From Methanosarcinaceae archaeon (GTDB lineage: Archaea > Halobacteriota > Methanosarcinia > Methanosarcinales > Methanosarcinaceae): 40,776 bases of DNA. The notes under the pieces were generated by a model, which saw nothing but the letters and a program-made list of their open reading frames with translations, was not told the DNA's origin and made no database searches. Below, in pieces: positions 22,245 to 26,818 of this stretch. Position 1 is the stretch's first letter. The number at the start of each line of letters is the position of its first letter. The position numbers were made by a program, and so were the translations under genes. Location: NCBI GenBank assembly GCA_030611265.1, contig JAUWQD010000023.1, positions 1-40,776 of the forward strand. The letters are read 5' to 3'.

Positions 22245-23012
22245 TTACTGCGCTCCTGCAACCATATTAGCAATCCTCGCCGCAAACGCCCCGGCAACGA
22301 ACCCCGCATCGATATTGACAACACTAATAACTGAACAGGATTGCAACATCGACAAAAGCGCAGCCTCACCGCCGCCGCCTGCGCCGTATCCTGTCGATAC
22401 AGGAACACCGATCACAGGAGCATCTATAAGTCCTGCAACAATGGTCGGAAGTGTACCCTCGCGCCCTGCCGCAACCACAACAGCACCAACGCCACGCTCT
22501 TTGAGTTTTGATATCTGTGGCATCAACCTGTGGATTCCCGCGACACCCACGTCATAGATAGCCACAACCTCGCACCCCATCTCGCGCGCCACCACTCGCG
22601 CTTCCTCGGCAACACCAACATCAGCTGTACCGGCTGTCAAAATGCCAACCACGCCGCCTGAACTTGGACGCGGCGTGCCGTTGTGAACAACAGCCGCACG
22701 GGCGCGTTCGTTCCACTCAATATTATCGGGATCAAATGCATTCCGCACAGCTTCGATCTGCTCATCAGACACGCGCGTAAGCAGCGCTCTTCCGGCATGT
22801 TCCACCTGCATTTTTGTAATATCTACCAGATCGTCAGGGCGCTTGCCTTCGGCAAGCACCGCTTCCAAAACACCGGTGCGGTGCATGCGATGTGTGTCGA
22901 TCTTCGCAATCTCAGAAACCGGTGTAAAACCCATGGACTTGATCTGCATGGTCGCAGAATCAACATCCAACTGCCCGCTTTTTAATTTTAGTAAGATATC
23001 TTCCAATTCCAT
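22245..23012 (-). CDS. larB: LarB, nickel-pincer cofactor biosynthesis (AIR-carboxylase-like)
   Basis: The 255-aa product carboxylates and hydrolyses nicotinic acid adenine dinucleotide in the making of the nickel-pincer nucleotide. It has an N-terminal helical part (LKSGQLDVDSATMQIKSMGF) and a PurE-like C-terminal domain: VGILTAGTADVGVAEEARVV, VAAGREGTLPTIVAGLIDAP, IGVPVSTGYGAGGGGEAALL. The ATG at 23012 is preferred to the TTG two codons upstream. Its start codon is just six bases after the stop codon of a decayed nadK copy, so it was once downstream of nadK in an operon that is now split by an inserted element. LarC and LarE are not in the window. Confidence 0.92.
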   Translation of the reverse strand: MELEDILLKLKSGQLDVDSATMQIKSMGFTPVSEIAKIDTHRMHRTGVLEAVLAEGKRPDDLVDITKMQVEHAGRALLTRVSDEQIEAVRNAFDPDNIEWNERARAAVVHNGTPRPSSGGVVGILTAGTADVGVAEEARVVAREMGCEVVAIYDVGVAGIHRLMPQISKLKERGVGAVVVAAGREGTLPTIVAGLIDAPVIGVPVSTGYGAGGGGEAALLSMLQSCSVISVVNIDAGFVAGAFAARIANMVAGAQ

Positions 23013-23018
23013 GATCAA

Positions 23019-23150
23019 CTACGCCAGTTTACTTTGAACCTTTTTATAGAACTCGCTGATCGTTGTCCTCACAAAACGTGCAGGATATTTTGCCTTTGTC
23101 AACGTAATAACATCGTGTTCACTGATAGTATAATTGTGTTATCCATTAAT
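23019..23150 (-). pseudogene. 3' end of a decayed second nadK
   Basis: Read on the minus strand it gives ING*HNYTISEHDVITLTKA, then KYPARFVRTTISEFYKKVQS and KLA, then a stop. The intact nadK (25976-26818) ends DGQHTYTIVEHDIITLTKA, then EHPARFVRTTISGFYTKVQS and KLA. The match is close, and the stop codon replaces the Gln of DGQH. It abuts larB and is cut at 23150 by the inserted element. Confidence 0.85.
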
Positions 23151-23200
23151 GGGCTTTGTGTATAAAGTATATCCTGTGTCTAAAGTCGGGATATGTTACG

Positions 23201-23561
23201 ATTTTTAAAAAAAGCCATTAAGACATGCCGTCACAGACCTCGGTTTTCGCTTCGCTCAAATCCGAGGCATCGAGGCCGATGCTCATGGATTTAATATTAC
23301 CATCAGAATGCTTTGTGGATTCAGGGTTGTTGGAAGGACTGTGTTCATGTGTCGGAAGAGAGTGACGGACATCAAGTTTGGAAATGTGTTTGCATTCTTG
23401 AGCATGGGGTCGATGGGGTGAAAAGTTAATTTATTGGGATCTCCCAAATATTGTGATTGTGAGAGGTGGTTTACATGAAGTGGGTGGTTTTTTTTAATTT
23501 AGGAGGGGGGGTCGATGATGCTCGGTATATTTCATTATTGGCTAGCCTAGTTTTTGCATTT
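23201..23561. other. Left non-coding part of the inserted element
   Basis: No gene is visible in any frame. One imperfect hairpin (CCTCGG at 23238-23243 with CCGAGG at 23262-23267) and a few G-rich stretches are present. It lies downstream of the HEPN gene. Confidence 0.4.
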
Positions 23562-24041
23562 TCAATCCTGCTCAAGATCTTCGTTGATAACATCATAAAG
23601 TATATCTAAAATTTTATGACCTTCTTCATAATATCCCATTAAATCATTAAATGTTAAATTTGAACCAGAGTCGTGTGCGGTAAAATGTCTATCATTTACA
23701 ATACTATTATAATCGTTTTGCATTTTGGTTCCATTTATTTTATCATTGAATTTTTCTTTATATTCCTTCCCAAAATAGTTTAAAGTCCCTGCAATACCAC
23801 TGGTACTAATTTGTCTAAATGTAGCTCTGAGGCTTGATTCAACATATGAATGAATAAATGGATCATTGACTTTCGATGCTCTTTTTACTATTATTTCTTT
23901 AATTTCATTTTCAAATACAGCACAAATGTAGATTAGTAGATATCGTGTAATAAACACTTCAATTTCTGTTCCTTTTGCATAATTTTCTTCTAAATGGTTA
24001 TTGCACGTCTCTAAAACATCATCGATCTTAGAAATCTTCAT
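23562..24041 (-). CDS. HEPN-domain protein, predicted RNase (RiboL-PSP-HEPN/MAE_28990-like)
   Basis: The 159-aa all-helical protein has the HEPN active-site signature RHFTAH (R118, H123; R-x4-H) in NDRHFTAHD, with an extended N-terminal helix bundle (EIEVFITRYLLIYICAVFEN) typical of the RiboL-PSP-HEPN group. Proteins of this kind have been predicted as toxin RNases in defence and toxin-antitoxin loci. It starts four bases after the DUF262 gene, with the GGAG of that gene's end as its ribosome-binding site, so the two are translationally coupled. Substrate and trigger are unknown. Confidence 0.8.
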   Translation of the reverse strand: MKISKIDDVLETCNNHLEENYAKGTEIEVFITRYLLIYICAVFENEIKEIIVKRASKVNDPFIHSYVESSLRATFRQISTSGIAGTLNYFGKEYKEKFNDKINGTKMQNDYNSIVNDRHFTAHDSGSNLTFNDLMGYYEEGHKILDILYDVINEDLEQD

Positions 24042-24045
24042 TTAG

Positions 24046-25152
24046 TTACTCCATGAAAAGAATATTTTCAGCCATATTCAAACGGTTTTTCACATTTTTT
24101 ACATCAGTTGTAGAACGGCTAGTGTAAATGTAAAATTCATTATCATCCACTAAATTTGAGAATCTATCTTTAATATCATCTGGGATATTATTCAAATTCT
24201 TAGCGAATGCAACCATGATTGAATCATATGCAGAAGAATTTAAACCAGCTCTGATATGAAATGGTTTTTCACCTAAATATTTGTATACTGCATCACAAGT
24301 TTGTTGAAATAAATCTTTCATTTTATCGATAGATTCCGACGGTGCATTCCGATTATGCTTCATAAATTTCGATAAATGGTCTTTTAACGGTTTTTCATAT
24401 TGGGAGGGGTCATAAAGCGCTAGAAAACGTAAAATAAGTTCTATATCTTTTTGGCGGGTATCAAATTTCGTTTTTCCCAAAATAGAACGCCAAGATGGAT
24501 ATTGATTTAAATCAATTAGCAAATCATTGAATTTACCACCATATACACAATTTCTCACCTCTTGATTTGTTAATAGTGTACCACCAGTGTTTAACCTTTC
24601 AAATATATGATAAATACTCGTATCATCGTCTGGATCTTGCTGATTTACAATAAAAGATCTCAAAACACAATTATTAAGTTTTCTTTTATCGTCTTCGTCA
24701 AAATCATTGAATGTTTTTCCATTCCAGTTACTCTTTTCACTCAATCCCTTCAATCTAAATATTCGCCTTTTTTGATTACTTTCTTCTCCAAAATAACCAT
24801 CAAAAAAATAAAAAATACTTTTTAATCTTTGCTGACCATCTATTACTAAATATTTTTGACTTTTCTTTTCAGTATAAAAAAAGACCGCTGGAACGGGCAA
24901 TCCAACAAGAAATGATTCTATCAATTTACTAGCTTGAGCCTGTTTCCAAACAAATTGACGTTGAAATTTTGGAATTTCAATATCTCCAGCTTTCCATTTT
25001 GTAAATAATCCTTCTAATGTAAAATCTGCAGGATATGTTGATATTTCATATTCAGGAGGGCTGCTTGTATAGTCATCTTCTTCAGATTCAATTTTTTCAA
25101 TCTCAATGCTTTCGTTAACAGATTTTTCATCTTCAGTTCTTATTTCATACAT
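24046..25152 (-). CDS. DUF262-domain protein (ParB/Srx-like NTPase or nuclease)
   Basis: The 368-aa protein holds the full DUF262 core: FTLEGLFTKWKAGDIEIPKF, then QRQFVWKQAQASKLIESFLV with IPKFQRQFVW at 60-69, DGQQRL at 105-110 and FERLNTGGTLLTNQEVRNCVY further on. The acidic N-terminal 40 residues are disordered. In GmrSD restriction systems a DUF262 domain is joined to a DUF1524 nuclease and cuts modified DNA; here DUF1524 is absent and the partner is HEPN. DUF262 + HEPN pairs are known from comparative genomics as predicted defence modules. GGAGAG precedes the ATG. Confidence 0.87.
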   Translation of the reverse strand: MYEIRTEDEKSVNESIEIEKIESEEDDYTSSPPEYEISTYPADFTLEGLFTKWKAGDIEIPKFQRQFVWKQAQASKLIESFLVGLPVPAVFFYTEKKSQKYLVIDGQQRLKSIFYFFDGYFGEESNQKRRIFRLKGLSEKSNWNGKTFNDFDEDDKRKLNNCVLRSFIVNQQDPDDDTSIYHIFERLNTGGTLLTNQEVRNCVYGGKFNDLLIDLNQYPSWRSILGKTKFDTRQKDIELILRFLALYDPSQYEKPLKDHLSKFMKHNRNAPSESIDKMKDLFQQTCDAVYKYLGEKPFHIRAGLNSSAYDSIMVAFAKNLNNIPDDIKDRFSNLVDDNEFYIYTSRSTTDVKNVKNRLNMAENILFME

Positions 25153-25602
25153 GATTGCTCTCCATATCGACTATCAAAATTATATAATGATTCCATAAAT
25201 TTCAATTTATAATAATTTTTCTCATGAAAATAGTATCATTTTGTCTTTTTCTTATTGGCGCCTATTAATGACATATAAAAATTTATTTTGGTTTTGGCTG
25301 TCAATTCATTTTGTGTTGTGACATCTTAAATTGTTACATTTATATTGCATAATGATAACATTTGCGTTCATATGCGGTCGATTTTTAGTTGAATTTACCG
25401 CAGATTTGGTTGTATTGTTTCTGTAACAGCAAACTTTTTGACAGCCCCTTTTGATTTATTGCCTTACCGAGCATGAAACCTCTATCGTCCGCAATAACTA
25501 TCCCTGTACTGAATTGTACAGGGTCTTCATATACTTAAATAAAACGATTTCTTACTTTGAATGCTGAGGTGGTTATCAACCCTTACCCAAATCCCGTGTG
25601 TA
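25153..25602. other. Right non-coding part of the inserted element, upstream of the DUF262 gene
   Basis: AT-rich, no gene visible. It contains the promoter of the DUF262-HEPN operon and an 8-bp perfect hairpin at 25502-25523. Confidence 0.45.
25502..25523. repeat. Perfect 8-bp hairpin
   Basis: CCCTGTAC (25502-25509), a 6-base loop, and GTACAGGG (25516-25523). It lies within the element's right flank. It may be a terminator, a regulator site or an old insertion-element end. Confidence 0.45.
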
Positions 25603-25670
25603 GGGCTTTGTGTACAAAGTACAGCCTGTGTATAAAGTCGAGACATAATTCGACTTTATACACAAAGCCC
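25603..25670. repeat. 68-bp near-palindromic unit at the right end of the element
   Basis: Begins GGGCTTTGTGTACAAAGT and ends ACTTTATACACAAAGCCC. Internally TGTGTATAAAGTCG repeats the arm. The first 45 bases resemble 23151-23197. This is the structure of a small inverted-repeat element (MITE). Confidence 0.7.
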
Positions 25671-25740
25671 CATCAATGACAATAACAACTTCATTTACAG
25701 TAGATTGAAGCACCTTACCACTCAGGCCATTTGCACCGCA
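25671..25740 (-). pseudogene. Internal fragment of the decayed second nadK
   Basis: Minus-strand reading LSGKVLQSTVNEVVIVID matches intact NadK LNGEALPSATNEVVI and then jumps to the VIVID that precedes DGQH. The copy therefore has an internal deletion as well as the insertion, and its 5' half is gone. Confidence 0.75.
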
Positions 25741-25763: not shown

Positions 25764-25958
25764 TTATGCGAATGATTTTGATTCGGGGATGGAGAGATCA
25801 TCCTCAATCAATCCCTGCACATGCAATTCTATGGCTTCATGCATATTCCGCTCTATTTCTTCACGGGTAACTCCCGTAGCAACACAGCCTGATAAATCCG
25901 GTGAATACGCCGAATAATTATTGTTTGCTTTCTCGATTACAACAAGGAAACGATACAT
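25764..25958 (-). CDS. Orphan HicB-family antitoxin, truncated at the C-terminus
   Basis: The 64-aa product has a typical HicB core: YRFLVVIEKANNNYSAYSPD, LSGCVATGVTREEIERNMHE and AIELHVQGLIEDDLSIPESK. It ends …SFA with TAA, but the frame continues beyond that stop as YVAI…, which is the usual family ending (…SFAEYVAI). So a nonsense codon removes the last few residues. No hicA gene is next to it: to the left lies the nadK remnant, and the intact nadK ends 17 bases upstream. It may still be functional as a solitary HicB, a common situation in archaea and cyanobacteria. Confidence 0.8.
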   Translation of the reverse strand: MYRFLVVIEKANNNYSAYSPDLSGCVATGVTREEIERNMHEAIELHVQGLIEDDLSIPESKSFA

Positions 25959-25975
25959 ATCTATTTCTCCATTAA

Positions 25976-26818
25976 CTACGCCAATTTACTTTGAACCTTA
26001 GTATAGAACCCGCTGATCGTTGTTCTCACAAAACGTGCGGGATGTTCTGCCTTTGTTAATGTAATAATATCATGCTCAACGATGGTATAAGTGTGCTGCC
26101 CGTCAATTACAATGACCGCCTCTTTTTCAGGATTTGTCAACTCAACCCTAAGAGTACTGTCCAAAGGAACAACCCAGGGTCGTGACGATAACTTGAACGG
26201 TGCCAGAGGCACGATCAATGCAGCATCCACGCGCGGGTCGATGATAGGCCCGCCTGCGCTCATGGCATAGGCAGTCGAACCCGTAGGGGTTGCAAATACT
26301 ACACCATCCGCGCGTAGTTCACCAAGTTCCCACTCATCCACACTGATCTTGTATGTAAGGATCTTCGCGGGTTTAGCCGTGATTATAACCACTTCATTGG
26401 TAGCGGATGGAAGCGCCTCACCATTCAATTGAACCGACAATCTTTGTCGTTCACCATATTTGAAACCGGCCAGCACATTTTCGATTGTCTCGATCGCATC
26501 TTCAGGATCCACATCAACCAAAAAACCAAGTGTGCCCATATTTACAGCAAGGATTGGAAGAGGATCATCCATTTTTGAGATATTACGAAGCACCGTCCCA
26601 TCACCGCCAACAGATATTATGAACTCTACACCATCCTCTCGCATCTTATTCACAGGCACCACAATGTCGCCTTCAACACCCAATGCCTTGGCTGTCATTG
26701 GTGCGAGCGCAATATCAACTTTAGGTTCAAACCTTTTCAAAATAGTCTTAACCATCTCAAGAGCATCCACATGGTCACATCTTGACACAATACCAATCTT
26801 GTTTACCATATTTACCAT
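25976..26818 (-). CDS. nadK: NAD kinase
   Basis: The 280-aa enzyme phosphorylates NAD+ to NADP+. It has GGDGT at residues 71-75, NE at 141-142, and the ribose-binding TPTGSTAY at 177-184. It starts four bases after the IMPase gene; a strong GAGGGGG overlaps that gene's end and is seven bases before the ATG, so translation is coupled. NAD kinase and an inositol-phosphatase-like protein are fused in Methanocaldococcus, and here they are adjacent. A second, decayed copy of the gene follows to the left, split by an insertion. Confidence 0.95.
   Translation of the reverse strand: MVNMVNKIGIVSRCDHVDALEMVKTILKRFEPKVDIALAPMTAKALGVEGDIVVPVNKMREDGVEFIISVGGDGTVLRNISKMDDPLPILAVNMGTLGFLVDVDPEDAIETIENVLAGFKYGERQRLSVQLNGEALPSATNEVVIITAKPAKILTYKISVDEWELGELRADGVVFATPTGSTAYAMSAGGPIIDPRVDAALIVPLAPFKLSSRPWVVPLDSTLRVELTNPEKEAVIVIDGQHTYTIVEHDIITLTKAEHPARFVRTTISGFYTKVQSKLA

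Follow-up and report, generated by a model that had tools for sequence, protein, structure and literature searches.

Introduction

Integron gene cassettes carry small exchangeable cargo between conserved boundary elements, with a variable hairpin at one boundary. Mobile insertion cassettes (MICs), such as MIC231 of Bacillus cereus, mic-qnrD (PMC3913671) and the qnrS2 mic of Aeromonas (PMC5444012), consist of inverted repeats with a target duplication around one passenger gene or operon, without a transposase, and their mobilisation in trans is presumed. The mic-qnrD and the pVERM mic have common ends and different interiors. TIMEs, which are Tn3-derived inverted-repeat miniature elements, and their composites (PMC4133298) are also transposase-less and hold diverse modules, and Tn7-like transposons carry diverse defence systems as cargo (PMC8649781). 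The movement of small single-locus defence systems between genomes is poorly understood, and few studies have addressed it in archaea. Here we describe a 2.5-kb unit at positions 23151-25670 of a 40,776-bp contig of a Methanosarcinaceae archaeon (the window), which holds a DUF262-HEPN gene pair. The unit is probably a non-autonomous cassette bounded by terminal inverted repeats (TIRs), similar to a MIC, which is moved by a transposase in trans and whose interior is exchanged by recombination in the shared ends. The window is contig C27 of the source genome G000 (2.86 Mb, 108 contigs), and the genomes compared are metagenome-assembled genomes (MAGs). To judge from the relatives, the genus would be ANME-3, with G000 and its relatives as ANME-3-type Methanosarcinaceae.

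The cassette and its ends

The sequence GGGCTTTGTGTATAAAGT is found at 23151-23168 (+) and again at 25653-25670 (-), and the two copies match exactly (18/18), as an earlier reading of the sequence alone (the sequence-only reading) had stated. Shuffled controls give an expectation of 0.01 matches per window. The functional end of the family to which the unit belongs is GGCTTTGTG..., and its first base varies among copies. With this end, the target duplication in the window is 9 bp long. It had been read as approximately 8 bp; the duplication is indeed present, with one mismatch between its copies. The orthologous site in the relative G001 has an exact 9/9 pair of CCATCAATG. The components of the unit are as follows.

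23143..23151, no strand: left target-duplication copy CCATTAATG, 8/9 against the right copy
23152..23280, + strand: left end (LE), with the 17-bp TIR GGCTTTGTGTATAAAGT, subterminal repeats and a hairpin-like stretch differing between cassettes; LE copies in G000 and relatives
23562..24041, - strand: HEPN RNase-fold gene, 159 aa, R118-x4-H123, motif RHFTAH; HEPN_RiboL-PSP PF18735, E=8.3e-13
24046..25152, - strand: DUF262 (GmrSD_N) NTPase-fold gene, 368 aa, IDGQQR at residue 104; PF03235, E=8.9e-32
25493..25602, + strand: inner part of the right end (RE), 110 bp, starting at the sharp cargo junction AATAACTATCC; same first conserved base in 24 REs
25502..25523, no strand: palindrome CCCTGTACTGAATTGTACAGGG adjoining the cargo junction, seen in the sequence and kept in most REs
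25603..25669, + strand: outer part of the RE, a palindrome of 67-68 bp that contains an inner TIR copy at 25604-25620 and the outer TIR at 25653-25669 (-)
25670..25678, no strand: right target-duplication copy CCATCAATG, pairing with CCATTAATG

A third copy of the GGGCTTTGTGTATAAAGT motif (17/18) is present at 25603-25620 (+). Its outer flanks match at 2/9 positions only, and it sits within the conserved ~180-bp right end that is also found in other copies; therefore it is not a separately inserted element. The right end as a solo miniature inverted-repeat transposable element (MITE) was considered and rejected, since the target duplication is found at the outer ends alone. In most cassettes the palindrome CCCTGTACT...AGTACAGGG (25502-25523 in the window) lies 9 bases inside the cargo-RE junction. 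At the other side, in the window (23220-23290) and in other cassettes too, the LE stretch between GTCACGGACC and GGCATC...GATGC is hairpin-like and varies in sequence. It differs even at one site, while the bases flanking the hairpin are conserved.

A family of units with common ends

The TIR motif occurs 41 times in G000 at up to 3 mismatches, against 8 times for a reversed control pattern. End-by-end searches reveal two asymmetric classes, LE (~80-130 bp) and RE (~180 bp), which share the 17-bp TIR. An LE is formed by the TIR, subterminal repeats and the hairpin-like stretch, and an RE by a 110-bp conserved piece followed by the palindromic 67-bp piece, with some copies being longer. The paired cassette-end sequence of the family can also be given as GGCTTTGTGTA. 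LE-RE pairs are present in G000, G001, G004 and G030, and more distant TIR units are found in G028 and G115. At up to 1 mismatch the end motif is found in 11/60 genomes sampled among the relatives, and the exact 17-mer with one free base in 16/186 genomes of the order. No extended end sequence was found in viral contigs, only 14 scattered short-motif matches, and Rfam gave only a sub-threshold CRISPR-repeat match. In the literature searched, nothing matched the end sequence or described non-autonomous cassettes with defence cargo like these.

Across G000 and its relatives ~28 units are readable inside. Their interior length varies between roughly 0.4 and 7 kb, often with one small defence or toxin-antitoxin locus. 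In the majority of the complete units the 9-bp duplication is exact or nearly so. Exact 9-bp duplications were identified by script in five complete units (L034, L110, L117, L133, L137). Further exact ones are GCAGCAGCC, present twice at L229 in G115, and CACACCATC on both sides of L033, the latter found by eye. The duplications of the window, L039 and L107 match at 8/9 positions and that of L108 at 7/9, while mismatched pairings of end motifs mostly give 5-9 differences of 9. In addition, a solo miniature copy of 86 bp (L148) is flanked on both sides by CAATACACA. The same end pairs with other cargo, for which the sequence-only reading proposed to search, are found in G000 and its relatives, for example around the SLFN_AlbA_2 gene of G001. 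Its view of a mobile unit agrees with this multi-copy TIR family and its 9-bp duplications; the insertion sequence (IS) with the same ends that it had put forward as the mobilising agent was not found in a search over five transposase families.

Different cargo at orthologous sites

The window unit lies beside larB in nadK', a duplicated 3' tail of nadK (site A). In G001:C316 the same order of larB, nadK', cassette, hicB and nadK is observed, with the same next genes. The left flank is 94.5% identical between G000 and G001, and the cargo of G001 is an SLFN_AlbA_2 ATPase. In G004:C79 an LE is located at the same base with RHH-GNAT cargo; its RE was not found. In G006:C214 an RE lies beside nadK. 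Empty alleles of the larB locus, which the sequence-only reading suggested to look for, are present in G002 and G005, where larB abuts intact nadK without duplication, hicB or cassette. Five further sites have orthologous flanks.

Site B: G000:C43, G001:C135, G004:C232
Site C: G000:C46, G001:C277, G004:C226, G003:C189
Site D: G000:C58/C42, G001:C138
Site E: G000:C1, G002:C20
Site F: G000:C78, G002:C142

The interiors differ at sites B, C, D and E, which are those comparable besides A. Conversely, the same GNAT cargo is found at two sites, G004:C79 (site A) and G000:C29, with 91% identity over 976 aligned columns including the LE. At the latter (L041, G000:C29:17000-28000), a contractile-injection-system-like operon with sheath- and tube-like open reading frames (ORFs) is interrupted by the LE with the GNAT cargo.

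The ends at site A point to exchange of the interior. The window LE has site-type variants in common with the LEs of G001 and G004 at this site. A plain comparison of end identity over all sites was ambiguous, and the RE was therefore analysed in two parts, inner and outer. The outer 68 bp of the window RE are 98.5% identical to the RE of G004:C74 beside the same flank and 94% to that of G001:C316, whereas the inner 110 bp share 96.4% identity with the RE of G003:C122 but only ~86% with those site-A REs. The window RE is a mosaic, with which a crossover near 25602 fits. Since the site-A interior was exchanged between species and the ends stayed constant, a point that the sequence-only reading did not see, it was probably recombination and not a new jump that brought the present cargo of the window unit.

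A transposase acting in trans would move whole units, even composites of two units with the intervening host DNA. After fixation at a site, homologous recombination in LE and RE would replace the interior, as the mosaic ends and orthologous sites suggest, and the outer ends with the target duplication would stay in place. With its interior replaced and its outer ends kept, such a site would serve as a socket in which cargo rotates. In G004:C74 a hicB-nadK' stretch lies between two cassettes, and TGACTTAAA is found before the first of them and, in G001:C45, after the second cassette. These outer ends, taken from two assemblies, fit a jump of the composite of two cassettes and host DNA from site A with a 9-bp duplication.

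Alternative explanations

Several points weigh against our explanation. No autonomous element with cassette ends was found in the transposase families searched, so that mobilisation in trans is presumed. In pairwise identity, a clear clustering of the ends by site is limited to A, D and part of C, and the enrichment of defence genes is an apparent one, judged from profile matches. Repeats in MAGs can make assemblies chimeric, and two site-A-type ends in G001 share 62-75 bp, so that chimerism is less firmly excluded there.

An integron-like exchange, in which cargo would enter between fixed inner junctions (the variable LE hairpin and the conserved RE palindrome) through a dedicated recombinase, is unlikely. 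In its favour, unrelated cargo meets the RE at the same base, AATAACTATCC, in 24 REs. At this junction the mean majority-base frequency rises from about 0.4 outside (0.37-0.47 per ten over the 80 bases before it) to 0.9 over the 20 bases just inside (0.93 for the first ten and 0.90 for the second). The first 18 of these bases are the search anchor and inflate the score just inside the boundary, with the outside drop unaffected. The LE hairpin also changes with the cargo, even within one site. However, the folding signal of this hairpin is weak (mean z -0.92 over 23; 3/23 below -1.65), some REs are truncated or junction-shifted (C30a, C36, g4B), and no recombinase gene was identified in or beside a cassette. 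No integrase gene was recognised in the cassettes read; no genome-wide search for one was made. Furthermore, ordinary recombination can account for the mosaic RE. General recombination explains the exchange, but not by itself why each cargo first joined at one base. A wider picture, in which ANME-3 chromosomal sockets have their defence cargo swapped precisely between fixed boundary elements by a dedicated mechanism and form a transposon-bounded, integron-like immune-gene platform, is possible at best.

Independent re-insertion would make the region near nadK' a hot target, hit at one and the same base by separate insertions of complete cassettes that differ in cargo; we regard it as decidedly unlikely. 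The 9-bp duplications of the cassettes and the occurrence of different cargo at the same base position agree with it. It would need repeated use of one 9-bp site, here and at other sites, and fresh insertions would bring unrelated ends. Instead, the outer RE and LE share site-specific variants between species at site A, the ends at sites A and D share derived variants across species while their interiors differ, and the window RE switches identity within the end.

That MAG assemblers joined different cassettes at their shared ends, which would make the exchange false, is very unlikely. Several contigs of the MAGs do end inside or near cassette ends. However, the longest exact runs shared with the other examined G000 copies are 19 bp for the window LE and 32 bp for its RE, short for a false join, which is therefore unlikely at the window, and the contigs of G000 and G001 each span both flanks of site A. 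It is hardly credible that the 2.5 kb is no unit but ordinary chromosomal DNA that happens to lie between two independent MITE insertions, a case that the sequence-only reading had named as fatal to its proposal, because, even though the RE holds a palindromic piece of 67 bp that looks like a solo MITE, the LE is 81% similar to this piece in the same orientation and solo copies with target duplications exist (L148), the target duplication pairs the outer ends and not those of the inner piece, the LE-cargo-RE order recurs with unrelated cargo, and site A has empty alleles.

Cargo of the window and of the family

The window cassette holds two genes only, both on the minus strand, DUF262 (368 aa) and then HEPN (159 aa), with a gap of 4 bp between the DUF262 stop and the HEPN start. 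The absence of a transposase and the assignment of the cargo to DUF262 and an R-x4-H HEPN RNase by the sequence-only reading were both correct. In PADLOC the DUF262 protein matches NsnA (E=1.4e-73) and PD-T4-2_A (E=2.2e-58); no match was obtained for the HEPN subunit. The PD-T4-2 system gives E. coli protection from T4 (PMC9519451); its listed components are DUF262 and HEPN, without DUF1524 (PMC10952713). The window pair has the (I/V)DGQQR motif of PD-T4-2 (as IDGQQR) and the adjacent PF18735 HEPN with R-x4-6-H (as RHFTAH), and a DUF1524 domain was not detected in it; by these features the cargo resembles the known PD-T4-2/NsnA-type pair, a defence-type module. It differs in being archaeal, and its DUF262 is 42.6% identical to the nearest plasmid relatives, from E. 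coli, and at most 36% to those in the Methanosarcinaceae searched. One of the plasmid relatives was checked and is followed by a PF18735 gene. Four Methanosarcinaceae relatives of DUF262 (29-36% identity) each have an R-x4-H gene immediately after them, and the cassette-end motif was not found at their loci. A related 2.5-kb stretch without the ends, which the sequence-only reading held to be incompatible with a mobile cassette, was not found: the nearest DUF262-HEPN relatives lack the ends, and the other cassettes hold other cargo. From its family, the DUF262 protein would sense a foreign, perhaps modified-DNA, signal and hydrolyse NTP. This would release the HEPN RNase, which would then cleave RNA and so end the infection.

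Defence or toxin-antitoxin families, as judged from profile matches, are carried by 13 of the ~28 readable units, a count that leaves out the DUF4062 and ATPase_2 units. The remaining units carry uncharacterised genes, often for membrane proteins or lipoproteins. No transposase was recognised in any cassette read or among the cargo proteins scanned. The cargo identified includes the following.

G001:C316: SLFN_AlbA_2 ATPase, 670 aa
G001:C135: SIR2/ThsA-like
G000:C58: ThsB-TIR (here a protein domain), 8xMP membrane protein and TIR-like effector
G000:C78: DUF4062
G000:C5: McrB-like AAA_5
G002:C20: AbiL (AAA_21 and RloB)
G001:C309: N6-methylase with specificity domains
G030:C100: TIR-like effector
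G115: PARP-like and SecB
G000:C29, G004:C79: RHH-GNAT (GNAT by profile, RHH by reading the ORF)
G004:C74: HicB and OGG-like

The same small lipoprotein (86% identical) is found beside the RE at L032:5110-5403 and L045:1807-2106, with different partner genes. At L113 (G001:C299), LE-like and RE-like ends bound a unit of 7.3 kb with peptidase-like, TPR-like and membrane genes, which sets it apart from the small defence units.

The chromosomal site

The neighbours of the window cassette are as follows.

22245..23018, - strand: larB-like gene (AIRC domain), left neighbour; PF00731, E=2.8e-15; 94.5% identical in G001, with the same neighbour there
23019..23150, - strand: nadK', duplicated 3' tail of nadK and insertion target; 86% identity to intact nadK at its 3' end (25971-26095)
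25670..25724, - strand: remaining nadK' piece, encoding NEVVIVID, joined to sequence ~275 bp further up nadK
25764..25958, - strand: hicB-like antitoxin ORF of 64 aa, located between nadK' and nadK; PF15919, E=5.2e-11
25976..26818, - strand: intact nadK; PF20143, E=6.3e-37, and PF01513, E=4e-16

Since the right-flank piece resumes ~275 bp further up nadK, the nadK' copy has an internal deletion. The sequence-only reading had placed one second nadK on both sides of the cassette; nadK sequence does occur in both flanks, and it amounts to a 3' fragment with this deletion. The hicB-like ORF belongs to the duplicated region and lies outside the cassette. Beside larB, a 123-aa ORF at 21787-22158 matches only the C-terminal part of DUF4143 and also Mrr_cat, and is apparently what is left of a larger ATPase gene.

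Search for a helper transposase

A search over five transposase families found no autonomous element with cassette ends in these MAGs, which are incomplete. Three Transposase_mut/MULE loci were examined as possible helpers; none has cassette ends and one has its own clear ends, CATGGCGTCAAG... The DDE_Tnp_1 and IS1 loci examined are also without cassette ends, and the IS1595 and ISL3 profiles gave matches in 1/10 genomes each. An IS1634-like element in G000:C16 with a TIR-like motif beside it was rejected as helper, as this motif is a cassette end that the IS entered. At this locus (L189, G000:C16:1-5000) the element, at about 1-1240, is inserted in the cassette end and leaves TTATACACAAAGCC beside it.

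Comparison with known systems

A vehicle for small defence loci is visible here: its ends are short, its target duplication is 9 bp long, its cargo is interchangeable, and an orthologous site is empty or differently filled depending on the species. By means of such cassettes, ANME-3-type cells, which are methane-eating archaea, may rotate their immune genes. Because uncharacterised genes occupy the same slot as known defence families in many cassettes, the end sequences provide a handle for finding unknown defence genes by position.

Among the described systems, Tn7-like transposons share with this family the transport of diverse defence systems, whereas the units here are small and non-autonomous, generally with one small locus each. 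Integron cassettes share the small exchangeable cargo and the variable hairpin at one boundary; in contrast to them, the units here have TIRs and target duplications, and no integrase was seen in those read. The likeness to TIMEs lies in transposase-less miniature units and composites with diverse modules, as a composite of two cassettes and host DNA appears to have moved and the solo miniature L148 exists. The duplication is however 9 bp instead of 5-6 bp, the ends are 17 bp instead of 38 bp, and no relation to Tn3 was seen. In kind, the family is closest to MICs, with which it has in common the inverted repeats, the target duplication, the lack of a transposase, the single passenger locus and the presumed mobilisation in trans, with no helper IS identified here. 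It differs from them in its ~28 readable archaeal units, long asymmetric ends, 9-bp duplication and mostly defence cargo where assignable, as well as in the exchange at several orthologous chromosomal sites and the shared cargo junction. Thus, the family is set apart from MICs by its scale, its archaeal host, the frequent defence cargo and the exchange at fixed sites.

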